A stretch of DNA of 64,000 bases from Salinicola halimionae (GTDB lineage: Bacteria > Pseudomonadota > Gammaproteobacteria > Pseudomonadales > Halomonadaceae). Below the pieces are notes generated by a model. That model ran no database searches. It saw nothing but the letters and a program-made list of their open reading frames with translations, and was not told the DNA's origin. The stretch lies in contig NZ_PZJQ01000002.1 of the NCBI RefSeq assembly GCF_003206065.1, positions 774,135-838,134 of the forward strand, in the 5' to 3' direction. Below, piece by piece: positions 37,419 through 45,804 of this stretch. Each line of letters starts with the position of its first letter. Positions within the stretch are counted from its first letter, which is position 1. The translations under genes were made by a program, and so were the position numbers.

Positions 37419-37564
37419 CAACCGAACACCCCGCCCGCCCAACCGGCGACGAGCCACAGCACCGCCAGAGGAATGAGCGCCAGCAACACACGCCGCCCGG
37501 CGCCAAGCGACATCAGTGAAAAGTGGCACGGCCCATCGGAGCGATGCCGGTGACGATGTGACAT
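37418..37564 (-). CDS. His-rich 48-aa putative membrane peptide upstream of znuC
   Basis: Short frame that starts at ATG 37564 (AGG about 12 bases upstream) directly below the Zur-like box and stops in TGATG shared with znuC. The first residues alternate His and Arg (MSHRHRHRSDGPCH: three His at positions 3, 5 and 7, a Cys-His pair at 13-14), followed by one hydrophobic helix (VLLALIPLAVLWLVAGWAGG). An internal ATG at 37513 would give only the membrane part. I recognise no family. Metal sensing or delivery beside ZnuABC, or a translated leader that couples znuC, is inferred. Confidence 0.5.
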   Translation of the reverse strand: MSHRHRHRSDGPCHFSLMSLGAGRRVLLALIPLAVLWLVAGWAGGVFG

Positions 37565-37596
37565 GAACAGATCTACCTGAAGAAAACAGGCAGAAA

Positions 37597-37611
37597 GGTT
37601 ATATCATAACA
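37597..37611. promoter_or_regulatory. Zur-box-like operator of the znu operon
   Basis: GGTTATATCATAACA resembles the gammaproteobacterial Zur consensus TGTTATAATATAACA, with arms GTTAT and ATAAC intact. It is the only such site in the gap upstream of the znuC unit. Zinc-dependent repression by Zur is inferred; zur itself is not in the window. Confidence 0.75.
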
Positions 37612-37619
37612 AAATGGGT

Positions 37620-37948
37620 GCCAAGCAGAGATTGCGGCCCCTTGTGTAAGAGATCACCGACAGTCCTTAGGTCGGGCTTGTAGCGACACGGTATCTGCGT
37701 TACCAAGGGTTACAGAAGACGCTCGAGGCCGATGGCTGAGCTTGGTGAGGGTATATTCGACAGACGGGTCGAATGGCTGCAATCGACCCTAAGCGGACAT
37801 GGCGGCAAAGGTAGCAGGCGCGTTTATTGGTGCTATGGGCAGTCGCAATGAAAGTGCCAATTAAAATCAGCAAGTTGGTAGTGCGGTATAATAATATTGA
37901 ACGCGCATGCTCGTTCAAGTGGAAAAACACGTGTGCTACCAGATACCT
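37620..37948. other. Gap between znu promoter and the accessory cassette
   Basis: No gene seen. Composition becomes AT-richer rightward. Contents: an inverted repeat GGGTCGA / TCGACCC at 37766-37789 with an adjoining AAGCGGACAT, and a TATAAT at about 37887 that could drive the next gene. The junction with the cassette is the GTTAGGC at 37949. Confidence 0.5.
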
Positions 37949-37949
37949 G

Positions 37950-39778
37950 TTAGGCAACTTCAACAAGGAGCTATCATGAATGAAGAGCTAGTCAGATTAA
38001 TGGAAGAGCTTGATCGTTCTAAGGAGATAGCTAGCGAACATTCTATTTCGTCAAAAATAAATCGTGCTACCGAAAATGATCAAAGTCCAAAGGCCATAGC
38101 CGAAAGAATTGCATTTGGATTTTGCGAAGAATATCTGGATAAGCCAAATGGCTGGGGCACATATTTTGGGCCTATGATGGTTTGGGTTGGGGATGACGGT
38201 AAGGCGTATGAAAGTCCCAGCATTGCACTGGTGACCAAAGAAATTATTGAGCACTGGAAAAGCAGGTCACAAGAAACCAATAATCCATTGATGAAAGCTC
38301 GCTATGCTGGGCTTGTTTGGGATCTCTCTGAAGCTGCTGTGGACGAAAAGCCTGACTATAGGATTGCTATTGACTATGTAAATGCGCTTCTTGATGTGAC
38401 TGATAACGATCTCTGCGAACACCCAATCGAAGCAATCACGAAAATCAAAAGGGCGTTCAAAGTTGCGTCCGCTCTGAATAACAGAGAACTGGCAGAAAGG
38501 TGTGTTGAAAGCGCGATTAAATTAGAATGCAGAATTGCTGAGGATGATAAAGCGGGCCTTTGGGGATTTTGCTTTGAGCTTTTTGTTTTAGGTAAATATA
38601 GGAATTTGTCTGAGACACAAGAGCAAAAGCTTGTGGATGATCTCGAGTCCCGATTAACACGTGTCTCTAAAGGGCATTCACCATGGGTGTGTGAATCGGC
38701 GGCCATCCCTTTAGCCACTTATTATCGTAGCAAGGGAATGAACGATGAAGTCATTCGAGTAATTGAGGTCGTAGGAAATAGTTTTGAAGATGCGTGTGAT
38801 GGCTTGGCTCCAATGCAGGTCTCTTCTTGGCTCCAGCATTTGCACGACATTTATATAAGCTACAACATGATCGAAAACGCAGAACGCGTTTCGAAGAAGA
38901 TCTCTGAGGTAGGGCCAGGTGTCGTAGAGAGTATGCAAGAATTCTCTCATAGCATGGAGATTCCCAAGGAAAAGTTAGATGCATATCTAGCTTCAATGAC
39001 GGAAGGTGGGCTTCATAAAACCCTTAGTAGAACTGCTGCGCAATTTATTCCGAAGAGGGATCAAGTAGAACAGCAGGTCTTGGGTCTGGCAAAAAATCAC
39101 CCATTGACATATTTGTTTACGAAGACACTGCAGGACCACAAGGGAAGACCTGTGGCGACGATTGGAGGAATAGAAGACGATCTGGAAGGCAATGTAATTC
39201 ACCAGCTATCACAAAATATGAGTATTTACTCATTTTTTCTCAGGCATTCATTTAAAAAAGCCTCTGAAGTTTACGAATTTGATGCCCAAGAATTGACCGC
39301 ATATATATTTCAGTCACCGATATTCGAAGAGTCTAAAAAGGATCTTATCCATACTGGTGTCCAAGCTTACCTCGGCGAGGATTATATCTCCGCAATACAT
39401 ATATTGGTTCCCCAGGCAGAGGCAGCTATTCGAACGTTGGTGGAGCTAATGGGGGGCGCTACTTTAAGGAAGAATAGGCAGGGTGGGCTACAGTTGAGGA
39501 CGTTTGACGATTTACTAAGAGATGAAAGGGTAGAAGAGTGTTTTGGTACTGATTCATCTTTCTATTTCAGGATGCTACTTACTGATCAACGGGGTTGGAA
39601 TATGCGAAATGACGTATGCCATGGAATCAGTCCGGTAGGTGCCTTCAATTATTCCACGGCAGATAGAATCATGCACGTAGTCCTTTGCTTGGCTCAGGTT
39701 AGAGAGAACAATACCTAACAAGGTGCTGCTGGCGGACAATTTTTACGCTGCTCTATAAAATTGCCGCAGAACGCGACG
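37950..39778 (+). mobile_element. Integron-type gene cassette carrying the DUF4209/HEPN gene
   Basis: The segment has the anatomy of a single mobile gene cassette: core site GTTAGGC at its left end (37949-37955), a ribosome site and one gene occupying nearly all of it, and an attC-like site whose first box overlaps the gene's stop codon. In the excised circle the left GTTAGGC would join the attC and pair exactly with its CCTAAC box, as cassettes require. Base composition is clearly more AT-rich than the surroundings. No integron integrase or second cassette is visible in the window, so this would be a lone cassette inserted at a secondary site. Confidence 0.65.
37976..39718 (+). CDS. DUF4209-like protein with C-terminal HEPN motif
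   Basis: Large, mostly helical soluble protein of 580 aa. The C-terminal part contains GWNMRNDVCHG: R544 and H549 give the Rx4H motif of HEPN ribonucleases, and RNxxxHG is the signature of DUF4209. The preceding segment (QAYLGEDYISAIHILVPQAEAAIRTLVELMGG, in pieces) is the usual lead-in helix. The N-terminal two thirds resemble a helical-repeat region with no recognised motif. Codon use is AT-rich and unlike the flanks. ATG at 37976 has AAGGAG five bases upstream. HEPN proteins often act in defence as RNases; that role is inferred. It sits inside a cassette-like element next to a TIR gene. Confidence 0.7.
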   Translation: MNEELVRLMEELDRSKEIASEHSISSKINRATENDQSPKAIAERIAFGFCEEYLDKPNGWGTYFGPMMVWVGDDGKAYESPSIALVTKEIIEHWKSRSQETNNPLMKARYAGLVWDLSEAAVDEKPDYRIAIDYVNALLDVTDNDLCEHPIEAITKIKRAFKVASALNNRELAERCVESAIKLECRIAEDDKAGLWGFCFELFVLGKYRNLSETQEQKLVDDLESRLTRVSKGHSPWVCESAAIPLATYYRSKGMNDEVIRVIEVVGNSFEDACDGLAPMQVSSWLQHLHDIYISYNMIENAERVSKKISEVGPGVVESMQEFSHSMEIPKEKLDAYLASMTEGGLHKTLSRTAAQFIPKRDQVEQQVLGLAKNHPLTYLFTKTLQDHKGRPVATIGGIEDDLEGNVIHQLSQNMSIYSFFLRHSFKKASEVYEFDAQELTAYIFQSPIFEESKKDLIHTGVQAYLGEDYISAIHILVPQAEAAIRTLVELMGGATLRKNRQGGLQLRTFDDLLRDERVEECFGTDSSFYFRMLLTDQRGWNMRNDVCHGISPVGAFNYSTADRIMHVVLCLAQVRENNT

Positions 39779-39784
39779 TTATAT
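39713..39784 (+). repeat. attC-like integron recombination site
   Basis: Outer boxes ACCTAAC (39713-39719) and GTTATAT (39778-39784). The inner part folds as CTG, CGG and CAATTTT pairing with AAAATTG, CCG and CAG, leaving an extrahelical G and A on one strand only, the hallmark by which the integrase chooses the attC bottom strand. The stop codon of the HEPN gene lies inside the first box. Confidence 0.7.
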
Positions 39785-39943
39785 CAGCTCTGGCTGAACG
39801 TCCGCTCTTGGCCGGTAGCTGCCGGCCGCCAGATGCAGCTTCCGGAGTCGATACCGGTGACTAAACATGGTGTAAGGCGGCCCCTAAGGTTTTTTCATTT
39901 CTGGCAAGCGCTCCAGTCCCACGGATATCTGGCAGGAATCAGT

Positions 39944-40897
39944 TTAACGCTGCAGAGGAGCAATGACGGTTTCCCATAGCAGCTCCGCGGCACCTTCCTG
40001 TGATAGTTTCTGATCGCGTCCTCTAGGGGCAGTCATTCCCAAGCTCGTTAGATAGAGCGATTGGTCATCTGCCTGTATCGTGAGCATCTCGTTGTACGAG
40101 CTGTCGCTGAAAGAGGCGCCCTGGCTATAGTAGATACCCGCACCCATTTGGCCTCCAACAAAGACCGTCGCCCTGGCAACGTCTTGACCGTCCTTATAGA
40201 TGGTTGCCGAGAACCTATTGGCATCGACTCGCCGGAATGCCCCCTCGAAACCGGGATTGCGTGCCTGAAGTTCATTCAGTGAGTTTTCGAAATAGCGCGC
40301 GATGTACTCGAAGGTGTCGAGCTGGAACCGGTCTTTGTCCAGCTGAGTGAAGGTCTTGGTAAGACGCAGATTGCTTGATCGTGGGCCATTAGGTACTACC
40401 TGGTGGGAGGTAGTTAGGTTGATGCGATCTGTTTGCGGACTGACGCCGATGTCCCTGGTACGCAATTTCTCAGCTGCTTTACGCACCTCTTTGGCCACCA
40501 GCAGAAACGCTTCGTCCCTATCAGGCCACAACGTAACTGGCTTTCCGTCCTGAGGGGTGCCAAGGAGTTTGCCGAATGGCGCGTACTGCCAATCGCATGC
40601 GCGTAGGATCACTGGGATGACGATCGCATCACCAGCTTGATGGCGCTCCATAGCCCGCTTCATCTCGATGTTGTAACAATAGTCGGAAGCGATGAAGTCG
40701 GGGCTGACCAACAGCAGGATGATCTCATCGCTGTTGATATGTTCGTCAATGGCAGCATCGATCTCTTGGCCAGCATTGATACGTCGATCATGCCAAGTGT
40801 TGATGACCCCTTGCCGCCTGAGCATTGCAAGCTGCTTCTCAAGCTGATCTCGCAGCGCCTCGTCAACATGACAGTATGAGAAAAAAACATTGGGCAA
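39944..40897 (-). CDS. TIR-domain protein with conserved C-terminal domain
   Basis: Cytoplasmic protein of 317 aa. Residues 1-145 form a TIR domain: first strand NVFFSYCHVDE, box-2-like DEIILLLVSPDFIASDYC, and the catalytic-type Glu E78 in YCYNIEMKRAM, the position used by NADase TIRs. Residues about 180-317 form a separate domain (FQLDTFEYIARYFENSLNEL, RRVDANRFSATIYKDGQ, GGQMGAGIYYSQG, LYLTSLGM) that I have seen attached to bacterial TIRs but cannot name; it may sense the trigger. Start is TTG at 40897 with GGGGAT upstream; no ATG or GTG gives a full first strand. Divergent from a 118-aa gene. Anti-phage NAD depletion is the likely role by family. Confidence 0.8.
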   Translation of the reverse strand: MPNVFFSYCHVDEALRDQLEKQLAMLRRQGVINTWHDRRINAGQEIDAAIDEHINSDEIILLLVSPDFIASDYCYNIEMKRAMERHQAGDAIVIPVILRACDWQYAPFGKLLGTPQDGKPVTLWPDRDEAFLLVAKEVRKAAEKLRTRDIGVSPQTDRINLTTSHQVVPNGPRSSNLRLTKTFTQLDKDRFQLDTFEYIARYFENSLNELQARNPGFEGAFRRVDANRFSATIYKDGQDVARATVFVGGQMGAGIYYSQGASFSDSSYNEMLTIQADDQSLYLTSLGMTAPRGRDQKLSQEGAAELLWETVIAPLQR

Positions 40898-41523: not shown

Positions 41524-41547
41524 GTCCGCTTAAGGCCGAAAGCGGAC
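41524..41547. terminator. Inverted repeat at the right edge of the accessory island
   Basis: GTCCGCTT and AAGCGGAC, eight-base arms with an eight-base loop (AAGGCCGA). It separates the 118-aa gene from the convergent SIMPL gene and may terminate both. Sequences with CCGCTT/AAGCGG also occur at 37789-37800 and 39800-39827 in the island. Confidence 0.5.
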
Positions 41548-42509: not shown

Positions 42510-42884
42510 ATGAAAACTCGCATTCTCGCCGCTATCGCACTGGCCGTCGCACTCCCTGCCGCCGCTCAGGCCAACAGCGTCATGGAGCAACGGGCATTCG
42601 CTCAGCAGCACGAAGCGCTGAATACCCAGACAACTTCCAGCTATCAGTTGCTGCCGTCCGACTATCGCATCAATACCGTCAGCGGCGGCCATAGCACCGC
42701 GGCCGATCATTCCCTTGCCTATGTCGCAGCGATCACGCAGCGGGCAACCGCTATCGCTGGTGGCAATAGCGAGCTGGTCGGCCAAGGCCAGAGTGATTCA
42801 GCCGCGCAGTCGCTGCAGAACGTCAATGGCGGCGGCGATACCGGGCAGGGCAATGTCGAAATGTCTTTCGCCAGCCTCGATTGA
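42510..42884 (+). CDS. Small exported protein, copy A (unknown function)
   Basis: Protein of 124 aa with a strong signal peptide (KTRILAAIALAVALPAAAQA, cleavage about residue 21). The mature part is polar, Gln/Asn/Ser-rich, without Cys. Comparison with the copy at 45430 shows two conserved blocks, NSVMEQRAFAQQHEALNTQT at the mature N-terminus and the C-terminal QNVNGGGDTGxGNVEMxFASLD, with a variable middle. No family recognised; a secreted or periplasmic role is inferred. RBS GGAGG at the right distance. Confidence 0.7.
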   Translation: MKTRILAAIALAVALPAAAQANSVMEQRAFAQQHEALNTQTTSSYQLLPSDYRINTVSGGHSTAADHSLAYVAAITQRATAIAGGNSELVGQGQSDSAAQSLQNVNGGGDTGQGNVEMSFASLD

Positions 42885-45429: not shown

Positions 45430-45804
45430 ATGAAAACTCGCATTCTCGCCGCTATCGCACTGGCCGTTGCCCTGCCTGCCGCCGCTCAGGCCAACAGTGT
45501 CATGGAACAACGAGCCTTCGCTCAGCAGCATGAAGCCTTGAATACCCAGACGACTTCCGGCTATCAGGCACTGCCGACCGAGTACCGCGTAGCCACCTTC
45601 GACAATGGCTATAGCGATGAAGCCGGTCGCGCCCTGGCCAGCGTCGAAGAGTCTACCCGTCACGGCACTCATCTCATCGGTGCAAGCACCGACCTGATTG
45701 GCCAGGGCCAAAGCGTGGCGGCCGCTCAGGCGCTGCAGAATGTGAATGGCGGCGGTGATACCGGCCACGGCAACGTCGAAATGACTTTCGCCAGCCTCGA
45801 CTGA
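45430..45804 (+). CDS. Small exported protein, copy B (unknown function)
   Basis: Paralogue of the gene at 42510, also 124 aa, with the same signal peptide and the same conserved mature N-terminus and C-terminus. The centre differs (GYQALPTEYRVATFDNGYSDE here against SYQLLPSDYRINTVSGGHST in copy A), with mainly substitutions and no length change, which suggests both are maintained as proteins. Same GGAGG ribosome site. No family recognised. Confidence 0.7.
   Translation: MKTRILAAIALAVALPAAAQANSVMEQRAFAQQHEALNTQTTSGYQALPTEYRVATFDNGYSDEAGRALASVEESTRHGTHLIGASTDLIGQGQSVAAAQALQNVNGGGDTGHGNVEMTFASLD

Follow-up and report, generated by a model that had tools for sequence, protein, structure and literature searches.

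Integrons are usually conceived as one attI site beside one integrase gene, and a single gene cassette in a chromosome with no integrase around it raises the question of what received it. We asked this of a DUF4209 cassette in Salinicola halimionae, a member of the Halomonadaceae, using a window of 64,000 nucleotides (the whole stretch of DNA analysed, in whose positions all coordinates are given). Very probably, a circular DUF4209 cassette was integrated by the integron integrase IntI at an orphan attI, which is part of a repeated docking platform without an integrase of its own. The cassette comprises the following features:

37950..39778, + strand: integron gene cassette of 1829 bp (TTAGGC ... 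GACG); homologous cassettes end at 37949 and 39780/39781
37976..39718, + strand: DUF4209 protein of 580 aa (PADLOC PDC-S39) with a HEPN-type RxxxxH motif
39713..39784, + strand: attC of the cassette, 72 nt, with the recombination point after G39778

Judged from its anatomy and its homologues, segment 37950-39778 is a bona fide integron gene cassette. Its left core reads G37949^TTAGGC and its right core G39778^TTATAT, with the stop codon TAA of the DUF4209 gene (39716-39718) lying inside the first attC box, ACCTAAC (39713-39719). An initial sequence-only reading had described such a unit, with a GTTAGGC left end, a foldable attC with two one-sided extrahelical bases at the right end and the stop codon within the first box, and both its coordinates and its anatomy hold. 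An attC covariance model built from 21 sequences from related loci, with training sites chosen by eye, matched one site in the 64-kb window at 76.9 bits, the site itself being in the training set. The attC hit anticipated by that reading was also obtained with a hold-out model that left out the window attC and still contained a site with 87% identity to it across 69 bases (64.5 bits, E = 4e-14). Elsewhere in the genome there was one further, weak match (23.4 bits, E = 0.08), while Rfam gave one sub-threshold chance match in the window and no match for the attC. The covariance model replaced an earlier hand-made detector (15 hits in elements, 0 in the reversed control and 2 in 115 kb of other loci, both strands) because the latter was too strict, missing the window's own attC.

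The consensus fold of the attC has two one-sided unpaired bases, with two-sided changes in 14 of 18 pairs. The minimum-energy fold of the inserted form leaves the outer boxes unpaired; once re-circularised, with TTAGGC joined, the site closes into the full attC hairpin with six outer pairs (-12.6 kcal/mol). Closure had been expected, but the exact pairing also claimed falls short by one position, with 6 of 7 positions of the first attC box paired to GTTAGG and the seventh being A against C. The fold energy z-score is modest, at about -2.2 (range about -2 to -3), so the case for the attC is carried by comparison and not by folding energy.

The same cassette occurs at 91-94% DNA identity in four other organisms: Pseudidiomarina terrestris (L215), Rheinheimera sp. 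D18 (L220), Salinibius halmophilus (L218/L223, a copy spanning two contig pieces) and a gammaproteobacterial MAG (L216). These copies start at 37949 and end at 39780 or 39781, in agreement with the breakpoints of 37949 and 39778 first proposed, and because homologous copies share their ends, the cassette unit and both breakpoints are fixed independently of any model. An attC lies directly upstream of the cassette in L215, L218 and L220 (only 22.7 bits in L218), placing these copies inside arrays. Vreelandella glaciei (L214) is the exception on the right, where the match covers 37948-39720 and is followed by a TIR gene. More distant protein relatives (41-70% identity; Psychrobacter, Bacteroidetes-type MAGs) revealed no such cassette ends; the relatives of the DUF4209 protein were taken from named genomes and comprise 12 loci.

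DUF4209 has been placed in HEPN, according to the excerpted text of PMC3710099, and the motif R544...H549 is invariant in 9 of 9 aligned relatives. No relative of the protein was found among PDB sequences, and its AlphaFold model is mostly helical, with a mean pLDDT of 70.4, a pTM of 0.51 and low values around the motif (538-554). The product is probably a HEPN ribonuclease that protects against phage. As for the earlier view of the gene, its DUF4209/HEPN identity stands, with the RxxxxH motif kept, whereas the label 'RNase-type defence gene' is plausible and unproven. Matches to defence models are frequent in cassettes of the platforms described below: PADLOC models at 1e-12 matched 23 of 40 cassette proteins with a length of 230 aa or more, the window protein included (42 such proteins exist, of which 40 were scanned singly), versus no more than 7 of 39 control ORFs taken from the window, a sum of family counts in which four matches come from one mad3 model (Fisher p = 3e-4, computed with 7). 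In assembling the controls, one automatic pick was dropped, one was swapped for an overlapping ORF and one was added. The cassette matches include Gabija GajA and GajB, a CBASS cyclase, AriA-type ATPases, AbiU, PD-T4-7 and PD-T7-3; PADLOC includes both tested and candidate systems, and candidates account for several of the 23.

We next turned to the DNA flanking the cassette, which contains these elements:

37775..37812, + strand: platform left end L, a 24-nt imperfect palindrome GGCTGCAATCGACCCTAAGCGGAC (37775-37798) followed by the conserved stretch GGCAAAGG
37813..37951, + strand: orphan attI, with a -10-like TATAAT (37887-37892) and a simple site ending at the core G37949^TTA
39779..39823, + strand: platform right end R, TTATATCAGCTCTGGCTGAAC plus the palindrome GTCCGCTCTTGGCCGGTAGCTGCC (39800-39823), inverted relative to L
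41524..41547, + strand: second right-end-type palindrome GTCCGCTTAAGGCCGAAAGCGGAC, where R sits in three related species

The DNA left of 37949 is, on comparative grounds, an attI site. A search with 37540-37955 in 58 genomes revealed, besides the orthologous chromosome, 31 places in 14 genomes matching the attI part, 3 of which adjoin an intI match on the opposite strand. A single genome carries up to six such places (G035, one of these beside intI), with orphans numbering up to five. The aligned copies have in common the -10-like ATAA (largely conserved in 24 copies), a 22-nt palindrome that reads TTGAACGCGCATGCTCGTTCAA in the window (37897-37918) and CTAATACCTG^TTA, followed by unrelated sequence. 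In the alignment of 24 copies, anchored on positions -8 to +3, conservation beyond GTTA (from +4 on) never rises above 0.54 bits; upstream of the anchor, several positions reach 1.5-1.75 bits and others carry little. A LexA-like box lies within 300 bases upstream in 4 of 26 attI regions, namely three intI-linked attIs, about 185 bases upstream of the core, and the orphan L084; none was found in the upstream 250-300 bases of the window attI and 21 other copies. A search of the window attI for a promoter-like site on the + strand found none. The 22-nt palindrome closely follows the -10-like box and may serve as an operator or an integrase accessory site, and in one copy (L072 2818-2841) both of its outer arms have changed together.

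In many orphan attIs, L takes the place of the LexA/intI side; on the other side, the sequence immediately following the last attC is shared too and constitutes R, TTATATCTNCTCTGGCTGAAYGTCCGCTTYTGGCCG. The two ends form an inverted-repeat pair, and each is an imperfect 24-nt palindrome. Among 151 family genomes, and with up to 3 mismatches allowed, the 29-nt L pattern occurs in 53 and the 26-nt R pattern (39789-39814) in 31; neither reversed control gave a hit. L or R is present in 65, or about two fifths of the sampled genomes. The own genome contains one L, one R and one clear attC, so the dispersal of platforms is visible in relatives and not in this genome. An origin of the palindromes as REP/BIME repeats was considered and rejected because of their low copy number, at most 4 places per genome in 14 of 35 genomes and 0 of 11 genomes from other families (the reversed control gave one hit).

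We then scanned 86 sequences (the window plus 45 and 40 loci), a non-random set fetched through attI, L, R or hotspot matches. This identified 36 L-then-R units of 0.7-5.4 kb, some being the same locus in different species, while the reversed sequence gave no L, R or attI match. The units are strongly polarised: attCs occur in 30 of 36 (counted at E < 0.05, some sites having been in the training set), all 56 attCs are oriented L to R, and so are 84 of 85 ORFs, the one reversed ORF being left out of the family scans, which took the other 84. In 23 units, 4-6 bp separate the end of an attC from the R pattern, and 144 kb of control loci contained 0 attCs. The attI reaches threshold in 19 units and not in 17; in some units it is degenerate, or a core inside the L region seemingly holds the cassette, as in L088. 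Tandem R-spacer-L arrays are found in three genera. In one genome (G065; L172, L167), tandem L-R units include ones as small as 688 and 832 bp, with an R-spacer-L junction of about 36 bp.

Does an integrase accompany these sites? The own genome is 99.99% complete and its best IntI match scores 80.5 bits versus a cut-off of 265, alongside three Phage_integrase matches. The initial remark that no integrase was seen thus extends to the whole genome, with none nearby and none over the cut-off. Across the 151 family genomes, 34 pass the IntI cut-off and 43 have a match at 1e-40, while 13 of the 65 L- or R-bearing genomes pass it (18 with any match) and 52 do not. The presence of L or R shows no association with IntI (p = 0.56), indicating that docks do not track a resident integrase. 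Of nine intI-type loci, seven of which carry an intI match, not one is enclosed between L and R, although a lone weak hit to one of these patterns (7 mismatches) is present in three. The family genomes also include intI genes that are incomplete or interrupted.

The contents of the platform vary between related species. In relative G003, the right flank is 96% identical from 39777 on, followed leftward by other cassettes and a different L-attI segment; because that segment differs too, the turnover is explicable by block exchange without IntI. Other cassettes occupy the same locus in G009 and G011 and also in G008, where the locus is split over contigs and the last cassette region is shared with G011. 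In G006, the locus holds a type I-F CRISPR-Cas system. CRISPR-related sequences at this znu/SIMPL hotspot comprise Cas1f, Cas3f and a 60-bp-spaced repeat array in one relative (L092 2042-6393 and 12500-14600) and three CRISPR-like repeats in another (L089 12611-12761).

Several copies are flanked by further repeated sequence. A dispersed 253-bp sequence, X, lies left of platforms in the window's genus (L170 4005-4257 and 25 other loci) and has no Rfam match (L170); of the 26 X-bearing loci examined, 9 have an L match (9 mismatches allowed) no more than 30 bases further on, the others having a bare attI or neither. A GNAT gene lies right of many X-bearing platform copies in this genus. As X and the GNAT gene border several copies, the true boundaries of a moving unit may lie elsewhere than at L and R: that unit may be larger than L-R, or X/GNAT sites may be reused hotspots. 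Two further observations concern the DNA to the right of the cassette, which includes this gene:

39944..40897, - strand: TIR protein (PADLOC ThsB model, 513 bits), outside the cassette

This TIR gene (39944-40897) sits between the two right-end palindromes (39800 and 41524), and in Vreelandella glaciei a TIR gene 47% identical to it directly follows the same DUF4209 gene. Two similar 124-aa ORFs (42510-42884 and 45430-45804) lie 2.9 kb apart on the same strand, with near-identical N-terminal ends that are signal-peptide-like by eye.

How, then, did the cassette arrive? The favoured sequence of events would begin with IntI integrating the circular DUF4209 cassette at the G^TT of the orphan attI, an attI belonging to an integrase-less platform (L - attI - [cassettes] - R) of which many family members carry one to several scattered copies. 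On this view IntI must have acted in trans or been lost since, and the cassette gene would probably be expressed from a promoter in the attI region, yielding the presumed phage-guarding HEPN ribonuclease. The sequence-only reading had instead suggested that the cassette may be inserted at a secondary chromosomal site, IntI having used a chance GTT in ordinary chromosome (attG insertion, reportedly the subject of Loot et al. 2024). A single cassette with no integrase nearby would fit this, but conserved elements lie on both flanks, the left one being an attI as found beside intI in relatives and in orphan copies, and we rejected attG as a very improbable explanation. The sequence beyond 39778 is likewise the end of a conserved element, so before insertion this place was most likely an attI within a repeated platform. 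The empty join predicted by the same reading, CCTG followed directly by TTATATC, gave no match in the 151 family genomes when sought as a 32-base pattern allowing 3 mismatches. Empty sites were also sought twice with joined flanks; no clean one was among the matches listed, but these searches brought to light X, the 253-bp repeat, and the GNAT flank.

The spread of the platforms is a separate matter. We hypothesize that they are mobile, each probably a non-autonomous unit bounded by the inverted palindromes of L and R, and we tentatively propose, at somewhat less than even confidence, dispersed, mobile, integrase-free attI docks at which one IntI acting in trans can load or swap anti-phage genes at many expressed sites, not in one mostly silent array. 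An unlikely alternative is that the platforms are remnants of complete integrons that lost intI in place, L and R being mere neighbouring chromosome. The orphan attI L084, which retains a LexA-like box resembling that of the intI promoter, shows that in-place decay does occur, and broken intI genes exist in the family. Against decay as the general explanation, only 4 of 26 attI upstream regions have the box, three of them intI-linked; moreover, L-type copies share one end in its place, R is shared too, and both recur in different contexts, up to several times per genome. Doubtful, though harder to set aside, is spread solely by homologous recombination between conserved hotspots, with no movement of L-R units. 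Here the znu/SIMPL locus is reused in different species and a right flank, recD-like by eye, is common to three genera (L057, L058, L164). Such recombination would also agree with the absence of a common target-site duplication (the best of 8,092 offset/length combinations reached z = 3.7; at the window's locus, three units have TCGAAT or CGAAT close to each end, as noted by eye only). It does not account for L and R being mutual inverted repeats or for their tandem arrays in three genera. No transposase was found among 25 of the 52 Pfam families listed for cassette ORFs, so no mobilising enzyme is known for the platforms.

The platform resembles several known systems without coinciding with any of them. 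Like a sedentary chromosomal integron, it has an attI, oriented cassettes, homologous attCs and defence genes among its cargo; unlike one, it has no intI, mostly holds one to a few cassettes, exists in several copies per genome, is delimited by L and R and, in the window, has no LexA-like box beside attI. For comparison, in Xanthomonas integrons 1.8% of cassette gene orthologues were defence genes by DefenseFinder, according to the part of PMC12444791 available. CALINs (attC clusters lacking an integrase) likewise hold cassettes without an integrase, but they need at least 2 attCs, whereas the platform keeps its attI and the window has a single attC. An attG insertion is likewise a lone cassette away from an integrase, the target here being a conserved attI and not ordinary sequence. 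Integron mobilization units and TIMEs are likewise short elements with inverted repeats that lack a transposase of their own and can mobilise other DNA, with Tn3-type repeats and usually 5-6 bp duplications in the excerpted account of PMC13367494; platform ends, unlike those of TIMEs, are 24-nt palindromes with no consistent duplication, and the attI is part of the unit. In Delta-attI cassettes of class 1 integrons, attI-derived sequence again lies outside its usual place, as pieces at the cassette's downstream end (PMC12901181, in excerpt), whereas the platform attI is upstream of the cassettes.

A literature search of titles and abstract openings, covering few subscription papers, revealed no description of dispersed attI platforms. 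Standard software would miss these docks, because IntegronFinder 2, as described in the available part of PMC9024848, reports by default only clusters of at least 2 attCs and leaves attI sites outside class 1 undetected. In this family, attI seems to have increased in number and become uncoupled from intI, which provides many docks in first position, possibly expressed and mostly holding one or a few cassettes. If the docks work, new defence genes could be found by their position, and the question is raised of which enzyme moves the docks.
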